Shown in pieces: positions 5,311 to 39,321 of a DNA stretch of 39,321 bases. Made by a program: the position numbers and the translations under genes. The DNA is from Bdellovibrio sp. (lineage in GTDB: Bacteria; Bdellovibrionota; Bdellovibrionia; Bdellovibrionales; Bdellovibrionaceae), in contig JABWCO010000018.1 of NCBI GenBank assembly GCA_013360185.1, positions 1 to 39,321 of the forward strand, given 5' to 3'. Numbering within the stretch: the stretch's first letter is position 1; every line of letters begins with the position of its first letter. A model generated the notes under the pieces. It had not been told where the DNA came from and ran no database searches. It worked only from the letters and a program-made list of their open reading frames with translations.

Positions 5311-6138
5311 ATGAAAACCATCATTACTTTGCTCGCTTTGCTTTCTTTTTCTTTGCCGGCATGGGCCCTTCGGCCCGTTGCGATCAAAGGCAATCGGACC
5401 CTCGTGGATCTTGAGGACGAAAGCATTTCCATCGGAGATCGCCTGGCTGCTCGCAGCAACGACGGCAGAACGCGGGCCCTCCTTGAGGTGAAGCAAATAA
5501 AAAATGGCCGTGCCGTGGCCAATCTACTAAAGGGCCGCATGAGCATGGATTTGAATTTAGCATTGGCAGGCTCCCCCGGCTCCGACAAATCAGTTCGCTC
5601 TTCGGGAAGATCGCGCGGAAGCAAGTCTGCGTGGGGCTTTACGGCAGGCATGGCCAACAATACGATGACGGTAAAATTGACATCGGCCTCGGTCTCTTTA
5701 GCCGGCAGCAGCTTTAACGTGTCAGGGTTTTATCAGCCGCACATTGACGGCAACTTCAGCGCACGGGTTTTGGTGGGTTACGAAACCCTGCAAGCCACGG
5801 GCTCGAACTCTGTCTGTGCCAGCTCAGAGTGTAAAGTCAATATCAGCTATTTGGGTATTGAAACCGTTATGCGCTATTCGTTCGTGCGTAATCAAACGAT
5901 GGACGTATGGGTTGGCGCCGGCTTAGGCTTTCTTTTTGCCGTAGGTAAAGACAGCAATATCTTAGACACCACCAAAATCAGCACCAACCAAACTATCGTA
6001 GGTTCTTTAGGCTTAGACTACAAACTGAGCCGGACAAGTTTTGTGCCGGTGCAGTTTGACTATGCGATGTTCCCCGACAATGCGGCCTCTTCGGCGAATC
6101 AGATGATCTTACGCATTGGTTATGGAATGAGCTTTTAG
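5311..6138 (+). CDS. outer-membrane beta-barrel protein, hypothetical
   Basis: The 275-residue product has a Sec signal peptide (TIITLLALLSFSLPAWA, likely cleavage before LRP). A ~90-residue periplasmic N-terminal part contains a basic, Ser-rich linker (RSSGRSRGSKS). Residues ~105-275 then form alternating hydrophobic strands such as FSARVLVGYE, VSYLGIETVMRYSFV-like and MDVWVGAGLGFLFAVG, ending in ILRIGYGMSF. The terminal Phe is typical of proteins inserted by the BAM machinery. The size suits an eight-stranded barrel of the OmpA/OmpW/DUF3575 type. Two cysteines (CASSECK) may make a loop disulfide. The start follows directly from the signal peptide, although the ribosome site is poor. Its stop overlaps that of the convergent gene at 6135. 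The function is unknown. Confidence 0.78.
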   Translation: MKTIITLLALLSFSLPAWALRPVAIKGNRTLVDLEDESISIGDRLAARSNDGRTRALLEVKQIKNGRAVANLLKGRMSMDLNLALAGSPGSDKSVRSSGRSRGSKSAWGFTAGMANNTMTVKLTSASVSLAGSSFNVSGFYQPHIDGNFSARVLVGYETLQATGSNSVCASSECKVNISYLGIETVMRYSFVRNQTMDVWVGAGLGFLFAVGKDSNILDTTKISTNQTIVGSLGLDYKLSRTSFVPVQFDYAMFPDNAASSANQMILRIGYGMSF

Positions 6139-7526
6139 TTCTCGTCCACACATAAAAGTCGCGGCAAAGTTTCAAAAGAACTTCTTCTGAAACTATAATC
6201 GCGGACTAACCTTTCAAAGTTCTCGCGCGTGTTTGAGGTGTATAACTTGTATTCGCAGTGAGGCTCTAATTGAGCATAATAGTCGATAAAATTTTTGCTC
6301 ATGGTCAAGGTCGGAAAAATTGCGACAAACTCATTCGATGCCGAAAAACTTAAACCTCGGGTACGCCAGCGCCGAATCAGTCTGTGCACCCGCGGATGCT
6401 TCTCCACTTCATGCAAAGGCAACACAATCGCGTAAGAGGTCCCACGCAAGCCAGCGTACTGTGTATAACCAAAGGGTTCTGGCCAGCCGAGGGCAAAAGA
6501 CAGGCCCACGTACGTGACCGGCAACAAAATCCCTGGTATCGAGACATAATTCACGGGCTCGTTTTTTAACTTTAGCAGAATGGCCAAAGCCCCAAAAGTA
6601 GCCACGGCTGCCATCGCGATGGAAACCCCGTCATAAACAATAGTTTGATAGTGCGCCCAACTTTCTGCGAAAGTAAAATTGAGCCCAAAAAGTACCGCCG
6701 TCACGGCGACGCTGATATATATAAGTCGACGATAATAGACTTTTAAATCCTGCTCCTGCGTCACCAGAAACAACAACGAGCAGCCAAAGACTGTTAATCC
6801 CACGCTGAGGAATATCCATATCGAAACGGCCATATGAAAAACCAAGGCACAAAGTAAAGCCGCTTTCCTAGTTTTTTTAAAGATGACAAAAAAAGCAAAA
6901 AACTCTAAAAGCGGCCCCAAAAGAATCGTCGCCTTAAAGGTCGCAAGCCAATCCAAAAAAGTCTTCAGCGACCTCCGATAAAGAAAACTATTTTCAACCA
7001 CAACCCCTGACAAAAAAGTCGGGTTCATTTTAACCAACGCCGAAAACAAGTACATCAAGGCAATCGCAACAATAAGTCTTTGCCGAATTTTTGCGGAATT
7101 TTCTTTATTCGGAGGTTCAAGACCAAGCAAAAGCAGTGGTATTAAAAAAACTGAAGTCGTATGAACGCCCACAGTTAAATGGGAACACACGTTGCGCATG
7201 ACAAGAGCACTTGCGGCAAGAATATAGGACGCGCGATGTGTGGGTTTAAGGAACAATAGCACAAAAGCCAAAACGTTAAAAATTTCAATGAAGGCCGGAA
7301 ACCAGCCAAAGCTGAAAAAAGAGACCGACATGCCTGGCAACAGAGGAATATTAAGCCACCCCCCCTGCATCAGCGAAAAAATGTCTAACATCTGATAGTC
7401 GTTTAAGCCCCTCTTCGTTTCGACAAACAAGGTCAACAACAACAACCCCAATGCGCTGAGACGAATAAAATAAACAAGATTATTTAATGAATACTCTGCG
7501 CGAAGCTCGGGTTTGCTATTTATCAT
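6135..7526 (-). CDS. polytopic membrane protein, HTTM (gamma-carboxylase-like) type
   Basis: The 463-residue product has about eight to ten hydrophobic helices in residues 15-390 and a soluble C-terminal tail of ~110 residues. The pattern resembles HTTM-domain proteins related to vitamin-K-dependent gamma-carboxylase. It includes a His-containing loop before a helix (HLTVGVHTTSVFLIPLLLLGLE), the segment YLFSALVKMNPTFLSG with the Lys typical of the family, and a later helix ALVFHMAVSIWIFLSVGLTVFG. Carboxylase activity has not been shown for most bacterial HTTM proteins, so no reaction is assigned. The gene ends with a 4-bp overlap on the convergent beta-barrel gene. The ATG at 7526 has only GAGG placed unusually close, so the start is less certain than the frame. 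Confidence 0.68.
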   Translation of the reverse strand: MINSKPELRAEYSLNNLVYFIRLSALGLLLLTLFVETKRGLNDYQMLDIFSLMQGGWLNIPLLPGMSVSFFSFGWFPAFIEIFNVLAFVLLFLKPTHRASYILAASALVMRNVCSHLTVGVHTTSVFLIPLLLLGLEPPNKENSAKIRQRLIVAIALMYLFSALVKMNPTFLSGVVVENSFLYRRSLKTFLDWLATFKATILLGPLLEFFAFFVIFKKTRKAALLCALVFHMAVSIWIFLSVGLTVFGCSLLFLVTQEQDLKVYYRRLIYISVAVTAVLFGLNFTFAESWAHYQTIVYDGVSIAMAAVATFGALAILLKLKNEPVNYVSIPGILLPVTYVGLSFALGWPEPFGYTQYAGLRGTSYAIVLPLHEVEKHPRVHRLIRRWRTRGLSFSASNEFVAIFPTLTMSKNFIDYYAQLEPHCEYKLYTSNTRENFERLVRDYSFRRSSFETLPRLLCVDEN

Positions 7527-27831: not shown

Positions 27832-30800
27832 TTAGAATCTTCGCACGCACCGGACCAAGAGACCATTGGGCAAGTTGGCGTTCTTGTTGCCGGCAGACTG
27901 CAGTCCGGCATCAAAGCGCTGGATCCACGAAGTATCACTAGCGTACTCTGTGGACGACCAATACCAATTTCCCGACACATCCAAACCCGGAATAGATCCC
28001 TTGTTGGTCCACATAAGGTTCAACTCATAACGACTTGGTAAATACCAGTCTTTATAGCCACCATAGTCTAACTTGTCACAATACCTAGCTGCCGCATGAT
28101 AACCACCACTCCCTGCGGCAGTGATCGCGACTATTTCGACAGCATTTTGATTGCCGTATTTGTTGTCTGTATTCGTGCCGCCATAACCAGTGCCACTTGT
28201 TGAAGTATAATTCGTCAAATTCGGGATGTCATACAAGCTACCAGTTCCATCGTTCCAATATTTTCTAGTCGCATCATTACCTGAGCAACTTGTCGGAGTA
28301 AAATCAGCATTGGCATAACTTGATGGCCCTGAACCTCCTGAGACTGAGCCAGCCGGGATATCTCCACAGCCTCCGGGCGTTGTCATGTATTTGTCTGTGC
28401 CCGAACCACTTGTGGCACCAGGGCTTAAGCTTCCTAAATAAATAGCCCCCCCCTCACACTCTGTTCCCGGCGTGGGTGTACCAAGACATGGATCAGACTT
28501 GGTTGCCAACCACGTTGCGGAATACGAAGAGTAAGCACTTTGATTTCCCACACTGTCCACCGCAGACACGGCAAATTTATAATTCACTCCCGGAGTCAAT
28601 GATAGCGAAGTGATGTTTTGTCCTGAAGCCAGCGTTACTTCTGATCCCACCAGTGTATTATCGTCCTTGTAAAGTTTTACCTTATAAACCGAAACTCCAC
28701 TGCCTGAATCTGTGGATGCCGTCCACGACAACAACGGTGTTTCTGTGTCAAATGCGGTCGCGGCAGAAACCGTTAATCCTGTCGGCACGGTGGGTGGCGA
28801 GACATCGACAGTCCAACCATCACTTGTCGCGACGGTGGAAGTATTCCCCGCCACATCCAAGGTACGGATTTCGACTTTATATGAAGTGCCATCACTGAGC
28901 GATAGACCGGTCACGGTATTTCCCGATACGAAATCCGCCCAAGCTTTCATCACCACGGAATCACTCGAACGAATCACCTGCACTTGATGTTTCTGGATAC
29001 CACTGCCACCCGTGTCACTTCCCGCAGTAAACGTGATGGTCGGAGACGCCGACGTGGAGTTTAACCACTGTCCGTCGTTCACGAGCGTAACCGCCGTGGG
29101 AGGTGTTGCATCCTTACTCATCACCACCGAATCGGCGGTCGCCGCATTGCCGGCAGAGTCGCTATGATTGGCGGTGATCGTGACGTTGCCATCAGCCACG
29201 GCACTTAAATTTAAGTTAGTGGTAAAAGAGCCCGCAGCACAAACCGGTGTCGCCGTCACGGCTCCGCCCGCGGCGGAAATGTCCACGGTCGTTCCCTCAC
29301 TGCACGTCCCACTGACCGTTAAACTTGCCGCTTGCGCCGCAGAAATGGTGCCCGCAACAGGTGAAGAAATCGTGACTGTTGGAAGAACCGTGTCTTTTGT
29401 GACCGCGACACTTGCCTGAGGCGCACTTAAGTGAGTCGCATTAATAGTGATAGCTCCATCTGCGACGGCGTTGAAATTTAAATTGGTACTATATGAATTT
29501 CCCGCACACGTCACCGTCGAAGAAAGCCCCCCGGTCGCCGTGACGACGACCGAAGATCCGTTCAGCGAACAAGCGCCACTCACCGCAAAGGAATTTTTAT
29601 TACTTAAATTTACATAAGCCCCACTTGTCGGAGTTGTGATCGTCACGGATAAGGCCGTGACTGTCACGGTGGCCACAGAAGTGTTATTCAAAGAGTCCGT
29701 CACCCTAACCTGCGTCGTCCCCGCCGGTGCTCCAGCCACATAACTTCCTGTTGAGGCGTTGATAGTCCCTCCGCCCGACACAACAGAATAAGAGTACGGA
29801 GACACACCGCCACTGGCCGTGAAAGTTTGGGTTTCTGTATATATTAATCCCACAGAAGCCGGACTTATCTGCAAAGACGCCCCCACCGTGATCGATGCGT
29901 TTGTCGTATTGCCGTCACTGTCGGTCACTGTCAATGAGTATGAGCCAGCACTCGCCGGTGCGGTATACAGTCCTGAGGCATTCACGGTACCGTTAGCCGG
30001 CGCTCCGGTAACACTATAAGTGTAAGGAGGAAGTCCCCCTTGTCCTGTGAACGTCGCACTATTGTTAACTGCTAGGTTTTTGCCTGAAGGCGTCACAGAT
30101 AACGCCGAATACAAGCTGACGATTTTCGTGGCTTCATGACCTAAAGAGTCCACCACTTTGATCGTCGCACTGACGCCGTTATTTAAGTTGGCCGGAGCTG
30201 TATACTGGCCCGAGTTGGCATCAATACTACCTTGCCCCGCTTCCACGATGGAATACACATAAGGCGCAACGCCCCCTGCTGCAGAGAAATTCAAGACTTG
30301 TCCCACTGCCAATTTATATTTGCTCGCGCTCAAGCTTAAACTTGCCGTCACCGTCACGGCCGAGGTTACAACAGTCCCGTCGGCATCCGTGAGTCGCACA
30401 GTATAACTTCCCGGAGTGGCACTGGCGGTGTATTTTCCGTAAGGCGAAATACTTCCTCCACCAGCCTCCACGACACTCCACACATACGGAGGCACGCCGT
30501 TGCTAGCCGTAAAGTCGGCGGTGTCCCCCAGCGAAAGAGTTTTTGTTAAAGGCGAAATACTTAAGGCTGGACTTACCAGGACCGTCGTTTCACTGAAGGT
30601 CCCCTCGGCATCTGTGACCCGCACCACGTAGGAACCTGGAGTATTTGGTGAGGTGTAAGTGCTTCCCGAAAAAGTCCCGCCGTCAGCGGTAACAACACTA
30701 TAAGTGTAAGGCGGAACCCCGCCTGTTGCTGAGAAATTTTTTGTTTTATTCAGAGTCATCTGGGGTGCCAAAGGTGCAATCACCAGATCATCATATATAA

Positions 30801-32694
30801 CCACGTTAGCAACGGCCTGCTGCCCCAGACTGTCGCTGACCTGGATACTTGCCGTCCCCGCCGCAGAAGGCGCCGTGTATTTGCCATCACTAGCTAAGGT
30901 TCCATCGCCAGAGACAAGAGAGAACACATAAGGTCCCAGTCCCCCGTTTGCTGCGAATTTTAGGGAAGCTGATTTTAGAATAGAGAAAGAACTTGGTGTT
31001 ATCTGTAACGGAGACAAAACCGCCAAAGATGCTTGCGAAAAATTATTTAAACTGTCACGCACTTCCACGGTCACGGTGCCCGGAACCGAGCTTGCCGTAT
31101 ATAAACCCGACACACTATTGATAGTCCCCGCGCCAGAAACAATCGCAAAAGTCTTGGCTCCCACGCCACCACTGGCAGAAAAAGTATGCGTTGCCAACGT
31201 GTTAAGATTTAAACTTGCGGGAGAAATACTTAAAGCACTCGCAATCGTAAGATTAGAAACTGCCGTGTGCCCTTGGCTGTCGGTCACGGTCACGGTACTC
31301 ACTCCCGGCGTCGCGGGTGCGGTAAATAAACCACCTGCTGAAATAAGCCCGTTACTGGTACTAAACGTGTAGGGCGGAATTCCGCCACTGGCACTGAATT
31401 GGTAGTTGCTGTTGACGGTTAACTGCAAAGTGCCAGGAGCAATACCCAACACTGGATTCACCGTGATAAAAGCTTTGGCATTATTAGGATGCGGGGCTTG
31501 GGAGTCTTCGACGGTAATCTCATACACCCCCGGTGTCATGGGGGCTGTATAGTTTAAACCACTTAAGGTTCCTTCACCGGCTGCCACGCTAAGAGTGTAC
31601 CCAGGCACTCCTCCACTGACATTAGGGGTAAAGTCGAAACTTTCTCCGACTTGCAAAGCAATACTAGTAATTGAAAAACTCAAGGCGTCGGTCACCCGTA
31701 CCACAGCTTGCGCGGATTGGGGTGGCGATGAACTATCGGCCACCGTCACCTCGTAGGTGCCGATGGCGGCCGGGGCATTGTAAAGACCCGATAACGAATT
31801 AATAGTTCCATGACTGACATTCGCTACGGAATAAGAGTACGGAGGTGTTCCGCCGGACGCGGAAAAATTGAAGGTGGAACTTTTCACCAAAGTAATATCG
31901 CTGGTATTTAAAAGTAAGGGATTGGTGATAGTGACGACTCCGACATCGACATTCTTTAAAGAGTCTGTGACTTTAAGCACCGCCGTGCCCACGTTGGCGG
32001 AAGCAACAAAATCCCCCGTGGAAGCATTGAGACTGCCCTCGCCAGAAAGAAGTTCGTAATGGTATGGCCCGACCCCACCACTGGCCGCAAACTGAAAAGA
32101 AGTCTCGCGAGGTAAAATTTTATTTTTCGGATTAAGAGCCAATTCTGGATTCACAGTTACATTCACTGTTGCCACATTGGCCTGACTATCAATGGCTTTA
32201 ATTTGTACACTTCCCGCCGAACCAAAAGAAGCGATACCTTGTGCGTTGATTGTAGCGTTCCCTGAAACAACAGACCACTCAAAAGGTGCAACACCACCCA
32301 GCGCCGAAAACGGGTAATTCATTCCCACACTCAAAGTTTTCCCCTCGGGAACAATTGAGAATTCCGGCGTGACTAAAATATTCACGAAATAAAAATTGCC
32401 GTCAGCGTCTTCGACCTTTAAAACTGAAAATCCTGCCGCTGCTGGCGCCGTGTAAACACCCTCCGCACTGACGGTTCCATTTCCCATATACACCGCATAC
32501 GAATTTACGGAAGAAAAAAACTGCTTTAAGTCCAAAGTTTCATTTGTACGAACGGTGTAAATGCCTTTGAAATCCGCGCCTGGAGTGGAAGGTAAAATCG
32601 CTTCGCCAATGGTGTCGGAGATGGAGGAGGCTATCCCGCCACAGCCCATAAGCCCTAAAGAACTTATAAAAATTAAGAGAATTCTTTTTAACAT
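27832..32694 (-). CDS. giant lipoprotein with 12 putative-Ig repeats and a DUF1566-like C-terminus
   Basis: I chose the ATG at 32694, 6 nt after GGAG; a longer frame adds 16 unlikely residues. The 1620-residue product begins with a lipoprotein signal (ILLIFISSLGLMGCGG). Then come one degenerate unit and 12 recognisable ~85-residue putative-Ig units, each with a core such as ASGGVPPYTYSV followed by GLYTAPA and VTVTDS. Next are two Ig-like domains with paired cysteines (VSGACSLNG and VSGTCSEGT), two fibronectin-III-like domains (TVDVSPPTVPTGL), and a ~200-residue C-terminal domain. That domain has YGGYKDWYLPSRYELNLMW and WYWSSTEYAS, typical of DUF1566/FISUMP, and ends VRCVRRF. It is probably a long surface stalk with a binding tip. 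It is the last gene of a minus-strand fibre locus. Confidence 0.85.
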   Translation of the reverse strand: MLKRILLIFISSLGLMGCGGIASSISDTIGEAILPSTPGADFKGIYTVRTNETLDLKQFFSSVNSYAVYMGNGTVSAEGVYTAPAAAGFSVLKVEDADGNFYFVNILVTPEFSIVPEGKTLSVGMNYPFSALGGVAPFEWSVVSGNATINAQGIASFGSAGSVQIKAIDSQANVATVNVTVNPELALNPKNKILPRETSFQFAASGGVGPYHYELLSGEGSLNASTGDFVASANVGTAVLKVTDSLKNVDVGVVTITNPLLLNTSDITLVKSSTFNFSASGGTPPYSYSVANVSHGTINSLSGLYNAPAAIGTYEVTVADSSSPPQSAQAVVRVTDALSFSITSIALQVGESFDFTPNVSGGVPGYTLSVAAGEGTLSGLNYTAPMTPGVYEITVEDSQAPHPNNAKAFITVNPVLGIAPGTLQLTVNSNYQFSASGGIPPYTFSTSNGLISAGGLFTAPATPGVSTVTVTDSQGHTAVSNLTIASALSISPASLNLNTLATHTFSASGGVGAKTFAIVSGAGTINSVSGLYTASSVPGTVTVEVRDSLNNFSQASLAVLSPLQITPSSFSILKSASLKFAANGGLGPYVFSLVSGDGTLASDGKYTAPSAAGTASIQVSDSLGQQAVANVVIYDDLVIAPLAPQMTLNKTKNFSATGGVPPYTYSVVTADGGTFSGSTYTSPNTPGSYVVRVTDAEGTFSETTVLVSPALSISPLTKTLSLGDTADFTASNGVPPYVWSVVEAGGGSISPYGKYTASATPGSYTVRLTDADGTVVTSAVTVTASLSLSASKYKLAVGQVLNFSAAGGVAPYVYSIVEAGQGSIDANSGQYTAPANLNNGVSATIKVVDSLGHEATKIVSLYSALSVTPSGKNLAVNNSATFTGQGGLPPYTYSVTGAPANGTVNASGLYTAPASAGSYSLTVTDSDGNTTNASITVGASLQISPASVGLIYTETQTFTASGGVSPYSYSVVSGGGTINASTGSYVAGAPAGTTQVRVTDSLNNTSVATVTVTALSVTITTPTSGAYVNLSNKNSFAVSGACSLNGSSVVVTATGGLSSTVTCAGNSYSTNLNFNAVADGAITINATHLSAPQASVAVTKDTVLPTVTISSPVAGTISAAQAASLTVSGTCSEGTTVDISAAGGAVTATPVCAAGSFTTNLNLSAVADGNVTITANHSDSAGNAATADSVVMSKDATPPTAVTLVNDGQWLNSTSASPTITFTAGSDTGGSGIQKHQVQVIRSSDSVVMKAWADFVSGNTVTGLSLSDGTSYKVEIRTLDVAGNTSTVATSDGWTVDVSPPTVPTGLTVSAATAFDTETPLLSWTASTDSGSGVSVYKVKLYKDDNTLVGSEVTLASGQNITSLSLTPGVNYKFAVSAVDSVGNQSAYSSYSATWLATKSDPCLGTPTPGTECEGGAIYLGSLSPGATSGSGTDKYMTTPGGCGDIPAGSVSGGSGPSSYANADFTPTSCSGNDATRKYWNDGTGSLYDIPNLTNYTSTSGTGYGGTNTDNKYGNQNAVEIVAITAAGSGGYHAAARYCDKLDYGGYKDWYLPSRYELNLMWTNKGSIPGLDVSGNWYWSSTEYASDTSWIQRFDAGLQSAGNKNANLPNGLLVRCVRRF
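29660..32365 (-). repeat. array of 12 putative-Ig domain units inside the giant lipoprotein
   Basis: Twelve successive units of roughly 80-90 codons each carry a (A/V)(S/N/L)GG.(P/G/A)PY-type core. Unit variation is high at the DNA level, so this is an old protein-level repeat and not a recent DNA amplification. Boundaries are approximate. Confidence 0.8.
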
Positions 32695-32809
32695 GAAACG
32701 CTCCCTAATCAGAGTCACTCTTATTCTTGAACAAACCCTCACAATTTCTTTTCGGTCTATTAATGAGTCTTCATTAACTTCGGATTTATATTAATTTGGC
32801 TCTGAATAA

Positions 32810-32827
32810 AAACTGCTCCATGAAAAT
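32810..32827 (-). repeat. short copy C of the intergenic element
   Basis: AAACTGCTCCATGAAAAT on the plus strand matches the core of copy B (36434-36451) with one mismatch. It lies about 115 bp before the start codon of the giant lipoprotein, similar to the ~135 bp between copy B and its downstream fibre gene. Confidence 0.5.
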
Positions 32828-32954
32828 ACATCGTTTTTCGATTCAAAATGAAACTCTGACTTTCTTTACAATTTCACTAAACGGGATAAGCAAAACTAGT
32901 AAAATGATGACTCAACTCAAACAAACTCTGTAGTGGCAGAGCCTGTAAGGCCTC

Positions 32955-32995
32955 CTCGAGGAATTGATATGTTTTTATATACGAAACTGCTCCGT
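32955..32995 (-). repeat. intergenic 41-bp repeat, copy A
   Basis: This starts CTCGAGGAATT and ends AAACTGCTCCGT on the plus strand. It is identical to copy B at 36405-36445 at 38 of 41 positions, in the same orientation. It lies between the Gly-rich gene and the giant lipoprotein gene. Confidence 0.85.
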
Positions 32996-33070
32996 TAGAA
33001 AAATGCGGCAGTGCCTCGAAAAAACTTTTTACTGTTTGTGTTTCCCGTCTGTAGGGTTCCGCTTTAAGTT

Positions 33071-33994
33071 CTACGGCAGCCAATAAATAACTATTTTTCC
33101 TCCGCTGCCGGATCCTGCTGTCAATGGAGTACTGCCAGTTGCACCATTACCACCTTTGCCAAGATTGGCTACGTAATCGGGATCTGCCGCTCCAACTGAC
33201 GCTCCACCTACAGATGTTGTACTACTTGTCCCGCCTGTATTAGAATTTGTTGTACTGCCGGCCTTAATATAATTCGTGCCGCCATGGGCTCGATTTGGAC
33301 TTGTTGTAATTGCACCACCGAAATAACCACCACCACCGCCTCCCCTTGAGGTATTTCCTGTACCACCAGTTGCATTGAATGCGATGCCGTTATGGGAGCC
33401 ATTCCCGCCCCCCGTGCCGCCCGAACCGCCAGTTCCCCCTCCAGATCCGCCGCCGCCGCCTCCTGCAATAACTAACGCATTTGCCTGAGATGCTGAACTT
33501 ATAAAGACTCCAGAATAACCGCCGCCGCCGCCACCACAATAGTATGAACCACCATCATTTCCTGCACCATAACCACCCCCTGGTGTTCCAGGAACGGCGG
33601 AATTACATCTGCCACCAGTTGAATTTTTTGCGCCTGCTCCACCATTTGCGACTTCGTAATAAAGAGTTCCTGAGACAGGTACCGTGGCATCAACGAAGGC
33701 CCCAGCCCCCCCTCCCTTTGGTGAATAGTCGAACGACATGTCTATAGAACCACCCCCGCCACCGCCCCAAGCTTTAATTCGAGCGTGTCCACACCCCGCA
33801 GGTACCGCAACTGTTCCAACTTGACCGCTAGAATAAACATTACTTCCACCGGGACAAGCGACATTGCCGACATTAGCCAATGCTCCTACGACAGGTATCA
33901 TTGTAGGGTTTGGTGTTCCAACCTGCGGAAGTGCAGTCAGAATAATAAATATAAAATATTTTACCCCGCAGGAATTTAACCGATAGGTGAACAC
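33071..33994 (-). CDS. secreted glycine-rich protein, coupled to the fibre gene
   Basis: I chose the GTG at 33994 because it overlaps the TAG stop of the fibre gene by one base (TAGTG) and follows GGGGGG by about 8 nt; the much longer frame to 34210 reads through the fibre gene. The 307-residue product has a signal-like hydrophobic N-terminus (KYFIFIILTALPQVG). Residues ~45-65 (TVAVPAGCGHARIKAWGGGGGG) match the start of glycine-rich domains found in tail-fibre-associated proteins. Several Gly runs follow, separated by short variable loops (SIDMSFDY, GNDGGSYYCGG, NRAHGGTNY, ADPDYVANLG), ending in GGKIVIYWLP. Such runs can pack as polyglycine II helices. Coupling to the fibre suggests that it caps or decorates it. 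This role is inferred. Confidence 0.75.
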   Translation of the reverse strand: MFTYRLNSCGVKYFIFIILTALPQVGTPNPTMIPVVGALANVGNVACPGGSNVYSSGQVGTVAVPAGCGHARIKAWGGGGGGSIDMSFDYSPKGGGAGAFVDATVPVSGTLYYEVANGGAGAKNSTGGRCNSAVPGTPGGGYGAGNDGGSYYCGGGGGGYSGVFISSASQANALVIAGGGGGGSGGGTGGSGGTGGGNGSHNGIAFNATGGTGNTSRGGGGGGYFGGAITTSPNRAHGGTNYIKAGSTTNSNTGGTSSTTSVGGASVGAADPDYVANLGKGGNGATGSTPLTAGSGSGGKIVIYWLP

Positions 33995-36300
33995 TATTGA
34001 TACCCCCCACCCCACGTCACATAGAGGGTTGAACCCGTATAAACGAATGTATAGATGGTATCTTTGCCTGCTGTCGTGGCCGTATTTGCTGGTAAAAATT
34101 TTGTCGAATATCCCAAGAAAGAATACGTTACCGCATTGATTGCAGCATTCCCCGTAACTACGAGGGTATATGTTCCCCCTGCGACAAGATTGGTGAGGGT
34201 GATAGCACAAGCGCCAGCGGCAATTGTATTTGACGGACTAAGTATTTGAGAATTGCTAGCTGCAAAATCAATTGCGCTTGAACCGCAGGTAAATCCACCC
34301 GAGAAGGTCGCAGGCACCGTCGTAATTGCTCCGCTCACTTGTAATTTAGACTCCGGAGTTGGGGTCCCAACTCCAATCTTGCCGCCAGCATAATTAATTC
34401 CACCGGTCGCGGCTGTCCAATAACCTGCCGACGCCGGAAGATCTGCGGCGGCTAACGCCCGAAACGACGGGGCGCCAGTACCACTTGGCGGGCCGATGAA
34501 AACCAAGTTCTGGGCAACGGTGGCAGATCCCGTCCCACCCTTAGAAATCGGCATAACGCCTGTGACATCGGCCATGGTCACATCCACTGCCGACTGGGTC
34601 GCCAAAGAACCCAATCCCGTCACATTTGCAGCCGGAATTCCATTGATCGCCTGACACGCGAACTGATCCGTGATCGAAGACCATCCTAGAGTCTGTGCTG
34701 CCGTACAAGCTGCAACGTTAAACGCGGAGGACGCGCCCGTGACATTTCTTAATTCAGACAACTTCACAAAGTGGGGCTGCCAACCAATACCATGCACATA
34801 CTTCATAAATTTTTGATCATCACCGGCAAGGGCAGTCGAAACTCCTACCCCGTTAAGTTTCCCAACGACCGTAGCACCTTGAGTTCCCGTCACGTCACCC
34901 AATAAAGAACCGGAAAATGATGTCGCCCCCGGAAGATTCGTCAATTGAGAACCATCGACTGCGGGAAGCTTCCCGCCAGCTTCAAGTTTAACAATTTTAT
35001 TTGCTGTAACTCCAGTATCGATTTCCAAAACATTTAAACCGTTCACAATTAAACCATTACCTGGGGCATTTTTGGCGTAAAGCGCCACTGACGGATCCGC
35101 TTCGGTGCCAATACCACTGTCAGGTGCACAGCTCCAACCACCAGCACTCGTATTTAAGGTAGAATCGTATTTTAAAACCTCACCGGTCGCGCAAGCTATG
35201 TTATTGGGTTTGTAATTGAAGTACTTCGTCGAACCATTAATTAATTTATCAATCGAAAGACCTGCAAGCATCCCATCTGCAAAAGTGCCGGTCGTGATTT
35301 TACTAGTCGATAAAACCGGAATGTCGGCAGCAATAAGAGCCACGTCACCCGCGATCACGCGGCCTTGAGCATCGGTTGTAACTTTATAATAGGAACCCGC
35401 CGTCCCGACGTTAGGAAGACTTAAGGTTACGGATCCTGTGGTACCACCACCGCTTAAGCCCGTGCCAGCAACGACATCAGTAATGTCGCCACTACCACCG
35501 CCCCCAGCGACCGTTTCCCAACTGACACTGGTGCCATCCGTTTGTAAATACTTACCACTCTGACCCACTTGCGATGGCAAAAGAGAATTCACACCACCAG
35601 CAAGACTGGTCGCAGTCGTCGCCGTAGCTGCATTCCCTGTGATATTCACACCCAACGAAGTGCCACTGCCATTGGAATTGTTTAAAATTGCATCGAGTTT
35701 CGTGAATCGTTCAAAAATACTTTCTAAGTTTGCCTGATCCACACCTTTGGCGCTATTGACGTTGATAAAGTCCGTGTCGGATTTACTGTTCAGCATTTCT
35801 GAATTCACCGCAAAACCCACCGCACGCATATTAAAATCTGCAACAATGTCTTCGCCCTGGATATTCATACGAACACGTAAAATACGACGATCGACATTTG
35901 AGGGGATATAGCTTTGTCCCGAAGAAACGATGTTATTGGCCTCATCCACACATTTTAAACCTGTGCGGGTCACAGAGTTGTTCATAACTTCCGTTATCGT
36001 CAAAACGGGAGAAGGGTTGCGCGCCCCCGGCGTTGAAACACTTGCATCACCTAAAATCAAATTTAAATACCCATTAGAAATATTTTTCCCAGAATGGACT
36101 TCTTCACGCAGCACACAGTCGTTCACAGGATCTAGAATTTGGGCGGTGATAGATATGCCACTGACGTTAGGATACGTGCCATCTGGTTTTTTTACGACCG
36201 CTTGAAAATTGATTCCCTTGTGTTGTGCTTGCGCGATCACAGCAAAAATCATCACGATTAAAAAAGAGAATAGAGGACTCAGAACGTTCCGTGTCTTCAT
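33994..36300 (-). CDS. tail-fibre-like surface protein (MAT type)
   Basis: I chose the ATG at 36300, 6 nt after AGGAG; the longer frame to 36375 lacks a ribosome site. The 768-residue product has a signal peptide (LFSFLIVMIFAVIAQAQ). Its conserved N-terminal domain (GINFQAVVKKPDGTYPNVSGISI ... SNGYLNLILGD) is the kind seen at the base of Bdellovibrio mosaic adhesive trimer fibres. A heptad segment (ESIFERFTKLDAILNNS) and a phage-fibre-like stalk of repeated modules follow, such as GKYLQTDGTSVSWET, GTGLSGGGTTGSVTLSLP, YYKVTTDAQGRV, and YWTAATGGINYAGGKIGVGTPTPESKL. The C-terminus is a separate beta-rich domain ending VTWGGGYQ. These proteins form trimeric fibres that recognise prey or host surfaces. 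It is coupled to the Gly-rich gene. Confidence 0.82.
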   Translation of the reverse strand: MKTRNVLSPLFSFLIVMIFAVIAQAQHKGINFQAVVKKPDGTYPNVSGISITAQILDPVNDCVLREEVHSGKNISNGYLNLILGDASVSTPGARNPSPVLTITEVMNNSVTRTGLKCVDEANNIVSSGQSYIPSNVDRRILRVRMNIQGEDIVADFNMRAVGFAVNSEMLNSKSDTDFINVNSAKGVDQANLESIFERFTKLDAILNNSNGSGTSLGVNITGNAATATTATSLAGGVNSLLPSQVGQSGKYLQTDGTSVSWETVAGGGGSGDITDVVAGTGLSGGGTTGSVTLSLPNVGTAGSYYKVTTDAQGRVIAGDVALIAADIPVLSTSKITTGTFADGMLAGLSIDKLINGSTKYFNYKPNNIACATGEVLKYDSTLNTSAGGWSCAPDSGIGTEADPSVALYAKNAPGNGLIVNGLNVLEIDTGVTANKIVKLEAGGKLPAVDGSQLTNLPGATSFSGSLLGDVTGTQGATVVGKLNGVGVSTALAGDDQKFMKYVHGIGWQPHFVKLSELRNVTGASSAFNVAACTAAQTLGWSSITDQFACQAINGIPAANVTGLGSLATQSAVDVTMADVTGVMPISKGGTGSATVAQNLVFIGPPSGTGAPSFRALAAADLPASAGYWTAATGGINYAGGKIGVGTPTPESKLQVSGAITTVPATFSGGFTCGSSAIDFAASNSQILSPSNTIAAGACAITLTNLVAGGTYTLVVTGNAAINAVTYSFLGYSTKFLPANTATTAGKDTIYTFVYTGSTLYVTWGGGYQ

Positions 36301-36404
36301 AAAGCACTCCTTACCAGAATCACAAAAGCTCCTTTTTTTGGATTTTTTTGGAGCCAAATCTAAAAATACTTTCACATATATTTTTCGGTGACCTAGAAGG
36401 GAAA

Positions 36405-36445
36405 CTCGAGGAATTCACGTGTTTTTATATACGAAACTGCTCCGT
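36405..36445 (-). repeat. intergenic 41-bp repeat, copy B
   Basis: Copy B differs from copy A (32955-32995) at only three bases in the middle (CACGT against GATAT). It lies upstream of the fibre gene starting at 36300 and just downstream of the first fibre gene. The 14-bp palindrome TCGTAAATTTACGA follows at 36466-36479. Confidence 0.85.
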
Positions 36446-36482
36446 GAAAATCCTTATCCGCCTGTTCGTAAATTTACGAGAC

Positions 36483-39321
36483 TCATCTTACACAACGGGT
36501 TCGCACGAGAGTTGTCGCCAATTGCGCCGTGACATGACCACTATCCAACCTAAAGCTAGAAGCATAAGATGCATCAAGCGACACTGAGCTTCTCGTCCAC
36601 ACTTGAGTCGTGGATGCCGTATATCCCATAAAAAGACCCATTTCTTCTATCGTCGCTAATCGCCAACCCGTGTACTTCGTACCGTCGCAAGCAATATTTC
36701 CACGTTGTTTTTCGCAGTTCGTTCCCAAACCACTGTTTGCCGTATTTAAACTGTCACAATAAATATTGGCGTTTGCTAGAGTCATAGTTGTCGCCGACTC
36801 TGCCGAAATCATCGTAGGCAAACCACCAGAAGTCATTGCCGCATCGACATACGCTTTCGTTGCCACATCCGTCGCCGCTGTAGGAAGTGCCACATTCGTA
36901 ATTTTATTGTTGTTTACGTTAATAACGCCGTCCACATCCAGCTTAGCCGCGGGAGTCACGATCCCAATCCCCACACTTCCCCCGGCATAATTAATTCCAC
37001 CCGTCGCGGCGGACCAATAGGTTGCGCTAGCTGGTAGTCTTGCACTGGCAATCGTGCCTGATGAAATAACTCCGGCATCAAGTCCAGCGATATTTGAACA
37101 CATCCAAGTTCCTGTAGGACTGGAGAAGGTCAACGTCTGCGAGGAAGAGCAGTTCGCTGGCATGCTTGAGGCCTTCAACAAATCATTATTGTTTGACAAG
37201 TTTGCACTTGAAAGAGCCGTGTTCACCCAATTTGTTCCATCGTATTTGAGCACTTGTCCCGCCGCGTACGCGACAGGCGACACGGCCTTACCTTTAATCT
37301 TATCAACACTGACCGAGGAGTAGATCCCACTGACGTCCCCTGAAAATACGGTAGCGGCACCCAGTTTGCTATTAAAAGCATCATAGTCAGATTTGCTAAT
37401 TAAACCAGCTGTGACAGCAGCAGTACTCGCCATCGGGATATTCAAGGTATGCGACGAACCTGAAGATGTCCAAACCATTGCGGATCCCGACGCCACGGGA
37501 TTAGCGAACGTTTGAGTATTTCCTGTTAAGCCATTTAACGAAGTAACAGCCGAACCATTTACGGCAAATGCAGTCCACGTCAAACCATTACAGTATTCAA
37601 CACTGCCGCCATTATAACGAATCGCCCCCACGATTCCCGCCGCACAGGCCGTTGCATCAGCACCCACCCGAACCGCGCCGGCAACATCTAATTTAGTTGC
37701 GGGCGCCGCCGTACCCACACCGATGTTGCCGTTCTGAAGCATGGTAAAGAAATCAGTGGTTCCCATCCCTAAAGAAAGCCCACGCCTCACTGTCCCACCG
37801 GCGTCGGTACCTCCACCATTAAACGCAATGAACCCTTGATCTGTTGAATCGACTTTTCTCTGAATTATAAAACGCGCAGACTCATGTGTTAAGCCACCAG
37901 CTTCGGTGCGCACTTGCCGAGCGATTAAACGGGATGTTCCGGATGTTGCATTCCCGCTTATGGAAAAAATATCGCGGCTCGCCCCCAGAGTTGAAGGTAA
38001 CGCTGTGGATTCGACAACCTCTAATTTCCCTAACGGATTGGTTGTACCCACTCCCACATTCCCGCCTGAAGGATTTATTAACACAAAACCTTTTGTGGCA
38101 CTGCTGGTAGAATCCAGAGTTAAATTATTGCCGGCGGCGGTGCCACCGTTTAAAGTTTGCCCTCCGGATCGTCCCGCTAAGAGCGCATACTGATTAAAGA
38201 TGTCGTTGGAGAGCACACTCCAACCTGGCACACCCGAACCATTTGTGGTGAGTATAGCGTTGTCAGCTGTGGCTAAACCTCCAACGACATTATTTGCTGA
38301 CGAATACAATAACTGATTTACAGTCGTTGAACTGGGATACGCTGCCGAAGAATACATTGGGCCCGTTCCTGAATACTGCAAAATAGAACCAGAAACCGAG
38401 CCCGAAACCGCCGTCATTAAGCCCGCTCCATTCGTACCAATCACACTGTAGTTAGACCAGCCCGAGGAAGATGCTTTACCGTTTATTTGCGTCTGAATTC
38501 CAGCCGTCACTCCGGAAAGGTGACTTAACTCTGTACTTGTGACTGCGGAAGCCACCGGCAAACCGTTAGCATCAGAGGCCAAAGCTCTGGTCGCTGTGAG
38601 TGCCGTATTTTCTATGATCGCTCCGCCGCTGGAAATCATCACACGATTGTTATTTAAAGCCGCCGTCGAGTTTGTGCCCCCACGCGCCACAGGCAATGTG
38701 CCCGTCGTCATTTTCGTTACGTCCAAATTGGGAATCATTGCGGGAGTTAATAATCCACTGCCATTAAGTTTTGCTATTTTATTGGCATCACCAGCACCAC
38801 CCGCTGTTCCCGCATTGAGCGTTAACACAGGAGTGGTTGTCGTTGGCGCAACCGAAATATCGCCGTTCGCACTGGTTACACTGGTCACCGTTCCAGATCC
38901 GACACCGTCACCCAAGGCAACCCATGTGGCCCCCGTATCACGATATAAAGTATTATTGTCAGAAGCAATATACAACCGCCCCGCCGTACCCGCCGCCGGT
39001 CGGCCCGCCAAGGTTCCTGTTTGCAAACTCGGAGTTCCCCCGGCGTTTTGTACACCATCACCAATACCGTAACCCAACAATGTCGTCGGTTTTCCTGAAG
39101 AAATTTTTGTCCAATCTAAATTAGGAATATCCCCGGCACCAAGAGCACTACCGGAAGTGACACGCCCTTGGGCGTCCGTCACTATTTTTGTATAGGTTCC
39201 GGCTGTACCCGTATTTTTCAAGGTTGGATTTGGATAGGTCCCACTCAAGTCACCGCCCGCAGTGCCTGATGGTGTACGAGAATCTGACAAACGGGCATCA
39301 GTTGCCTGAACTACAGTTCCC
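36483..39321 (-). CDS. tail-fibre-like surface protein (MAT type) with DUF1566-like tip, N-terminus outside window
   Basis: The frame is open to the last base of the window and reads GTVVQATDARLSDSRTPSG, a stalk motif typical of phage-type fibres, so the TTG at 39290 is an internal codon. At least 945 residues are visible. The stalk has modules such as GGDLSGTYPNPTL, YTKIVTDAQGRVTSG, LPVARGGTNSTAALNNNRV, ELSHLSGVTAGIQTQINGK, IGVGTAAPATKLDVAGAV and YWSAATGGINYAGGSVGIG, with a helical segment near VATKAYVDAAM. The last ~90 residues (YCDSLNTANSGL, GWRLATIEEMGLFMGY, VWTRSSVSLDASYASSFRLD, RTRCVR) are a DUF1566/FISUMP-like tip. It is probably the distal adhesive domain of a trimeric fibre. Confidence 0.82.
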   Translation of the reverse strand, partial: GTVVQATDARLSDSRTPSGTAGGDLSGTYPNPTLKNTGTAGTYTKIVTDAQGRVTSGSALGAGDIPNLDWTKISSGKPTTLLGYGIGDGVQNAGGTPSLQTGTLAGRPAAGTAGRLYIASDNNTLYRDTGATWVALGDGVGSGTVTSVTSANGDISVAPTTTTPVLTLNAGTAGGAGDANKIAKLNGSGLLTPAMIPNLDVTKMTTGTLPVARGGTNSTAALNNNRVMISSGGAIIENTALTATRALASDANGLPVASAVTSTELSHLSGVTAGIQTQINGKASSSGWSNYSVIGTNGAGLMTAVSGSVSGSILQYSGTGPMYSSAAYPSSTTVNQLLYSSANNVVGGLATADNAILTTNGSGVPGWSVLSNDIFNQYALLAGRSGGQTLNGGTAAGNNLTLDSTSSATKGFVLINPSGGNVGVGTTNPLGKLEVVESTALPSTLGASRDIFSISGNATSGTSRLIARQVRTEAGGLTHESARFIIQRKVDSTDQGFIAFNGGGTDAGGTVRRGLSLGMGTTDFFTMLQNGNIGVGTAAPATKLDVAGAVRVGADATACAAGIVGAIRYNGGSVEYCNGLTWTAFAVNGSAVTSLNGLTGNTQTFANPVASGSAMVWTSSGSSHTLNIPMASTAAVTAGLISKSDYDAFNSKLGAATVFSGDVSGIYSSVSVDKIKGKAVSPVAYAAGQVLKYDGTNWVNTALSSANLSNNNDLLKASSMPANCSSSQTLTFSSPTGTWMCSNIAGLDAGVISSGTIASARLPASATYWSAATGGINYAGGSVGIGIVTPAAKLDVDGVINVNNNKITNVALPTAATDVATKAYVDAAMTSGGLPTMISAESATTMTLANANIYCDSLNTANSGLGTNCEKQRGNIACDGTKYTGWRLATIEEMGLFMGYTASTTQVWTRSSVSLDASYASSFRLDSGHVTAQLATTLVRTRCVR

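Follow-up and report, generated by a model that had tools for sequence, protein, structure and literature searches.

It has long been asked how predatory bacteria can recognise prey of very different kinds, and the mosaic adhesive trimer (MAT) fibres offer the best answer to date. In the part of Caulton et al. 2024 (PMC10769870) drawn on here, the described MATs carry their tips (S74, beta-sandwich, TNF-like and C-type lectin) in the same chain as the fibre. Among phages, the gp38 adhesins of the T2 type and of S16 attach by their N-terminal part and recognise by their C-terminal part, and in chimera work the N-terminal 113 residues of gp38 had to match gp37 (PMC12892980). The myocyanophage Pam3 has in gp24 TNF-like and glycine-rich (Gly-rich) domains at the fibre tip, with a reported resemblance to the ALK fold (PMC9608196), and the branched tailspikes of the Ackermannviridae bring several recognition proteins together on a common trimeric scaffold (PMC8825819).

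The present study examined a stretch of 39,321 nt from Bdellovibrio sp. (assembly GCA_013360185.1, contig JABWCO010000018.1, positions 1 to 39,321 of the forward strand; hereafter, the window), in which a MAT fibre gene overlaps the gene of a secreted Gly-rich protein, its partner. The fibre and this partner probably constitute one two-component adhesin, in which the C-terminal domain of the fibre, here termed the class-B tip, would be a general socket and the partner an interchangeable head. The fibre's own C-terminal tip domain, which the initial annotation of this DNA had not included, proved central to understanding the system. Taken as a whole, the results suggest that in these predators exchangeable binding heads are mounted on a common fibre tip.

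The fibre gene and the Gly-rich gene that overlaps it

The pair comprises the following features:
33994..36375, minus strand: MAT fibre gene, 793 aa from GTG 36375, with an NF053851 match.
33997..34299, minus strand: class-B tip domain, the proposed partner socket, at the extreme C-terminus of the fibre (...TIYTFVYTGSTLYVTWGGGYQ), from the A3 and A4 profiles, the AlphaFold2 (AF2) model and fold matches.
33992..33996, minus strand: TAGTG overlap of the fibre stop (TAG 33996-33994) and the partner start (GTG 33994-33992), read directly.
33071..33994, minus strand: secreted Gly-rich partner, the proposed head, 307 aa from a GTG start, PF21722-like over residues 57-305 and with a fold resemblance.
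33830..33994, minus strand: signal peptide and mature N-terminus of the partner (..TMIPVVGALANVGNVACPGG), the proposed docking segment, from its sequence aligned with the N-termini of other partners.
33074..33829, minus strand: Gly-rich domain of the partner, from VPAGCGHARIKAWGGGGGG to GGKIVIYW, from alignments A1 and A2.

The fibre likely starts at ATG 36300 (MKTRNVLSPLF..., with a signal peptide ..AVIAQAQ), and it matches NF053851 (Bdello_MAT_N) at 114.1 bits against a curated cut-off of 60, which makes it a MAT and one of the 12 MAT_N loci in the genome of the window (G000, 3.54 Mb in 227 contigs). Both genes lie on the minus strand and share one base between stop and start, and the other in-frame partner starts upstream (TTG 34210 and a GTG 22 nt up) would merely read the other frame of the fibre. 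Among 40 class-B units with a partner, the partner starts 1 nt back into the stop in eight (TAATG or TAGTG type), the window among them, and an ATGA-type start/stop overlap is present in three; because the same overlap types recur among these units, the coupling in the window is not a chance overlap. The identity of the fibre and its translational coupling to the downstream gene, both proposed in the initial annotation, are upheld by these results.

The partner is built as it had been described there, from poly-Gly runs with short loops between them, and about 30 residues separate its signal peptide from the Gly-rich domain. PF21722 (Gly_rich_2) aligns to it as a full domain (residues 57-305 against positions 4-225 of the 226 in the profile) at 15.1 bits, which does not reach the gathering cut-off of 24.3; equivalent partners at L045 (38.3) and L084 (36.7) lie above that cut-off. 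A leave-one-out profile of relatives gave the window partner 16 bits, compared with a maximum of -14 over 200 residue shuffles, and the score rests largely on the stretch VPAGC..KAWGGGGGG, because block shuffles retaining this stretch reached up to 22.5 bits. Judged by sequence, then, the partner is a divergent relative of PF21722 and not a formal member. PF12810, the ALK/LTK-type Gly-rich family, did not match it at E up to 1, and no match was found by tblastn of the protein against 50,697 phage records. Sequence matches to solved structures were set aside, consisting of antibody fragments and other low-complexity matches only. Its low-confidence AF2 model is closest in structure to the tail tip of Bxb1 (Z 6.7) and next to the Gly-rich domains of ALK/LTK (Z 4.4-5.2), above unrelated rows from 3.5, and Foldseek alone returned no significant match for this model; its poly-Gly part lies mostly below 50 in predicted local distance difference test (pLDDT), which bears on a polyglycine-II sandwich.

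Class-B tips and the secreted proteins coupled to them

A profile (A3) made from six class-B tips, the last ~100 residues of the fibres, located the tip at about 120 places in 62 of the 141 genomes of the order, and 60 loci outside the build set of this profile were fetched as a held-out test. In all 60 of them, the tip coincides with the end of the open reading frame (ORF), with 0-4 residues after it. This result bears on whether the two genes of the window are one broken gene, an ancestral MAT/Gly-rich fusion split by a frameshift or sequencing error, in which case the second ORF would not be real. Fused versions exist in relatives, the ORFs overlap and the genome is a 227-contig draft, but a broken gene is scarcely credible here, and we rejected it on two grounds: the partner has a start and an independent signal sequence of its own, and a complete tip domain ends at this point throughout the held-out loci, in many genomes and before unrelated partner types as well.

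A coupled partner was defined as an ORF of at least 120 aa that starts at most 60 nt from the fibre stop and bears a Sec or Tat signal. Such a partner follows 41 of the 64 class-B fibres (40 by the fixed rule and the Tat case L152 by eye) and, when the held-out class-B loci are taken alone, 35 of 58, compared with 4/48 among S74-ended MATs and 5/35 among other MATs. The Fisher p for class-B against S74-ended MATs is 7e-10, and this and the other p-values given here are optimistic given that the loci are related and not independent; many of the genomes are drafts. One of the four S74 cases is simply the next MAT gene, and in class B there is at least one case, L313, in which the supposed partner may be a membrane protein with no relation to the fibre. 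Two S74-ended MATs (L213 and L192) are closely followed by secreted proteins, that of L213 being an LVIVD beta-propeller, with an N-terminal motif like CSSPTGAAGTMDYF..KYCDGTSW.

A rival explanation is an operon without assembly, in which the partner is an independent secreted adhesin co-expressed with the fibre for the same stage of predation. We regard this as unlikely. Co-expression would account for the 23 of 64 class-B fibres that lack a partner and for stand-alone secreted Gly-rich proteins that have similar N-termini and lie away from MAT genes (L039, L041, L042, L043, L046), but it would not by itself lead one to expect that partners follow class-B tips far more often than S74-ended MATs. 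Also against it are the existence of fusions of MAT and Gly-rich domains and the fibres of a second class, class A, which appear cut within a motif that the partner completes.

Class A comprises L034, L084, L085 and L148, at which the fibre end has a motif such as GDDCSAIGAGAIARDSSGNLMICN and terminates inside C..GAI..D..G..C, while the mature partners begin with TWKKLSG, KTWKKVSG, APKWKKV and APTWRKV. Other MATs contain an uninterrupted version of a similar motif, C..GAIRY..G..EYCNG..W, and to judge from these motifs the class-A partner seems to restore a Trp-Lys strand that is absent from the fibre end. Three class-A loci belong to the window's own genome, and at one of these (L085, on contig C194, 4880-10878) four secreted Gly-rich genes with near-identical mature N-termini (PKWKKIIS) surround one MAT gene, the copy at 5818-6510 having an apparent frameshift near its end.

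The main domains of the class-B partners are mutually unrelated, including LamG (laminin-G), TSP1, DUF7483, RCC1, Kelch, NHL, DUF5122, DUF285, FGE-like and Gly-rich domains, the last represented at L292 by a PF12810 match of 42.4 bits (cut-off 24.5), and they are typical binding modules. Kelch and DUF1554/endostatin-like partners also occur at the same position after fibres that have other tips (L226, L150). The design is accordingly broader than the Gly-rich gp38 analogue that had been proposed for it, since the class-B partners are usually not Gly-rich.

Near the mature N-terminus, 17 of the 41 partners have an aromatic-basic motif (GAFWK, PSFWK, GSFFK), whereas stretches drawn at random from these proteins gave a mean of 1.05 and a maximum of 4. 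Head type also varies with tip type, with LamG heads at 8 of 16 C-I-W tips and 1 of 21 Y-x-W tips (p 0.002); between tip type and the aromatic motif no significant association was seen (p 0.09). In genome G034, coding sequence for PFxFWK was observed at 17 sites, as opposed to one in a reversed-pattern control, and several of the sites that were checked begin stand-alone secreted proteins, which could be orphan heads.

The AF2 model of the class-B tip, made from 62 sequences, has a pLDDT of 89.6 and a predicted template modelling score (pTM) of 0.83. Its neighbours among phage proteins are the Pa223 capsid spike (Z 8.0), the KP1 baseplate (6.7), T4 gp9 (64-167; 6.5), the Solidus tailspike (6.4) and residues 79-180 of CBA120 TSP4, which are the XD1 domain (6.0); the bacterial CpaA and StcE domains, known members of the XD1 fold, were also recovered, and other folds came from Z 4.2 downward. 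A fold search of BFVD with the tip produced many phage tail fibres, with 170 matches at E up to 0.001. Because the modelled fold is XD1-like and nothing follows it in class B, the model supports a phage-type trimeric domain with its distal face free, though this falls short of proof of docking. The tip profile had no sequence match among solved MAT tips, and its fibronectin matches in the PDB covered ~20-35 residues and were taken as chance. A phage origin by sequence was rejected, given that two class-B tips had no tblastn match among phage records and a scan of viral contigs found no relative, though the fold search gave phage tail proteins.

The frequency of this fold in phage fibres and the existence of class-B fibres without an adjacent partner would also suit a tip that itself binds prey, to which a laterally bound partner would add a second specificity. 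We consider this rather improbable, as the tip is fairly conserved and the partners are diverse, which is the reverse of what would be expected if variable recognition were a property of the tip. A chaperone that folds the fibre tip and is then released, in the manner of T4 gp38 and the Tfa proteins, would be encoded after the fibre as the partner is, and the Gly-rich protein has a weak match to phrog_863 ('tail fiber assembly'; E 6e-4, 85 of 690 positions); chaperones, however, would not be expected to have mutually unrelated binding modules as their main domains, to be missing beside some class-B tips or to be exported themselves, and we hold this explanation to be very improbable.

Gly-rich domains in relatives and the surroundings of the pair

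A second profile (A2), made from the window domain and its relatives, placed the Gly-rich domain at 54 sites in 30 of the 141 genomes, in four kinds of context. The domain is found as a C-terminal fusion to MATs at seven loci (L033, L035, L036, L038, L106, L107, L111); it is the product of a separate secreted gene directly after a fibre in the window and at L034, L045, L049, L050, L084, L085, L092 and L114 (the fibre N-termini of L049 and L092 falling outside the fetched stretch); it stands at the ends of Ig-repeat (immunoglobulin-like) lipoproteins and prepilin-like proteins; and it occurs in stand-alone secreted proteins, which also begin with IPFxFWK. These four contexts indicate that the Gly-rich domain is a general adhesive module, of which pairing with a fibre is one use. 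The prepilin-like proteins that end in the domain (L037, L044) may mean that it is also displayed on pili. Further units of a fibre and a Gly-rich gene are present in the window's genome on contigs C194, C204 and C208. The pairing recurs at many loci. The occurrence of Gly-rich proteins mostly without a fibre gene, which the initial annotation had named as evidence against the pairing, is partly borne out, for the domain, often free of a fibre, and not for the two-gene unit.

The cassette of fibre and partner is flanked by two copies of a direct repeat:
36392..36450, plus strand: upstream copy of 59 nt, which matches 32942-33000 at 81% identity and contains an exact core of 26 nt.
32942..33000, plus strand: downstream copy.

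A 24-nt core of this repeat occurs exactly twice in the genome, in the two flanking copies, and a third, partial copy is found at 32810-32827. The repeat may be the trace of a cassette insertion or of a duplicated upstream region. As a general mark of such cassettes it was discarded, being present at the window alone among 23 loci tested. After the unit, a gene at 27832-32742 encodes a lipoprotein of 1636 aa that has Ig-like repeats and, at its C-terminus, an Lcl_C domain; relatives of this lipoprotein at L047 and L048 have a Gly-rich domain in place of Lcl_C, and end domains therefore seem to be common to fibres and lipoproteins. The next gene upstream (36483-39320), truncated by the contig end, is another fibre-like gene, whose Lcl_C tip scores under the Pfam cut-off and which has shaft motifs in common with MATs.

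The proposed two-component adhesin and known systems

In the explanation that we favour, a two-component adhesin of fibre and partner, the MAT fibre would serve as a trimeric stalk, fixed to the predator through its conserved N-terminal domain, with the phage-tail-type class-B tip at its far end and nothing beyond. Fibre and partner would be made together through the stop/start overlap, and the partner, exported separately on its own signal peptide, would attach to the fibre tip by its short mature N-terminal segment and display its Gly-rich loops, with their TNF-like beta scaffold and poly-Gly stretches, as the head that contacts the prey. Other class-B fibres would have different heads at the same place, hence a socket and an interchangeable head. 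In this scheme we infer the physical docking itself, the part played by the N-terminal segment, the stoichiometry and the binding of prey.

Several observations weigh against it. The absence of an adjacent partner from 23 of the 64 class-B fibres implies that some fibres can do without one or receive one from elsewhere. Signal peptides were called by our own simple rule, and that of the window partner is weak (h-region FIFIILTAL); the motif patterns and classes were set after the first loci had been inspected. The window partner does not have the aromatic motif, its N-terminus (VVGALANVG..C) resembling a non-aromatic group, and the covariation of heads with tip types may only reflect the kinship of the loci. 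The fold matches lie below Z 8, with one at 8.0, and the AF2 model of the Gly-rich protein has a mean pLDDT of 52 and is confident for parts of the beta scaffold alone. In phages, moreover, XD1 is described as a spacer that is unable to bind a trimeric partner across its axis, being obstructed by the linkers to its flanking domains (PMC8825819), although in phages further domains come after it.

A wider version of the same proposal, which we advance tentatively, is a plug-and-socket system across the predatory Bdellovibrionota, in which the class-B socket would take many unrelated secreted heads through a short N-terminal plug, with genes adjacent or elsewhere, so that few fibres would serve a larger combinatorial set of prey-binding heads. 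If many MATs carry separate heads, much of the recognition repertoire is absent from the MAT tips listed so far. Single fibre knock-outs would then call for another interpretation, and the lectin-like, propeller and Gly-rich heads would be direct candidates for glycan- and prey-binding assays.

Compared with the MATs of Bdellovibrio bacteriovorus, as presented in the part of PMC10769870 used here, the window fibre is alike in its NF053851 N-terminal family, its signal peptide and its variable C-terminal end; the window pair differs from them in its separately encoded partner, the proposed head, and by a text search that paper makes no mention of a head encoded apart from the fibre. With gp37-gp38 of the T2 type and S16 it shares the position of a Gly-rich adhesin gene directly after the fibre gene, joined here by TAGTG. 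Unlike gp38, the window partner has no ~110-residue domain for attachment to gp37, only ~30 residues in that place, and class-B partners are exported and often not Gly-rich. Membership in gp38 was ruled out on the missing attachment domain; S16 gp38 was not among the Foldseek matches listed for the Gly-rich model, which alone proves nothing. What remains of the gp38-like two-part design suggested by the initial annotation is thus its layout, a fibre with a separately made head, and what falls away is the membership, given the missing domain and the resemblance in fold to ALK/LTK and Bxb1.

The ALK/LTK domains and the Bxb1 tail tip resemble the window partner as the best structural matches of its low-confidence model, but in these proteins and in Pam3 gp24 the Gly-rich domain lies within the chain of the receptor or fibre, whereas in the window it forms a separate exported subunit. 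The modelled fold of the class-B tip resembles XD1 of CBA120 TSP4 and, in T4 gp9, the middle domain, over 89-95 of 105 residues (Z 5.8-6.5); XD1 in phages lies inside the chain as a spacer and is followed by further domains, whereas the class-B tip is always the last domain. The branched tailspikes of the Ackermannviridae are comparable to the class-B proposal in gathering recognition proteins on a shared trimeric scaffold, and differ in docking through XD2/XD3 and head domains where a short N-terminal segment is proposed for the window. If the proposal is true, the pair would be a bacterial case of a layout known from phages, a fibre with a detachable adhesin.

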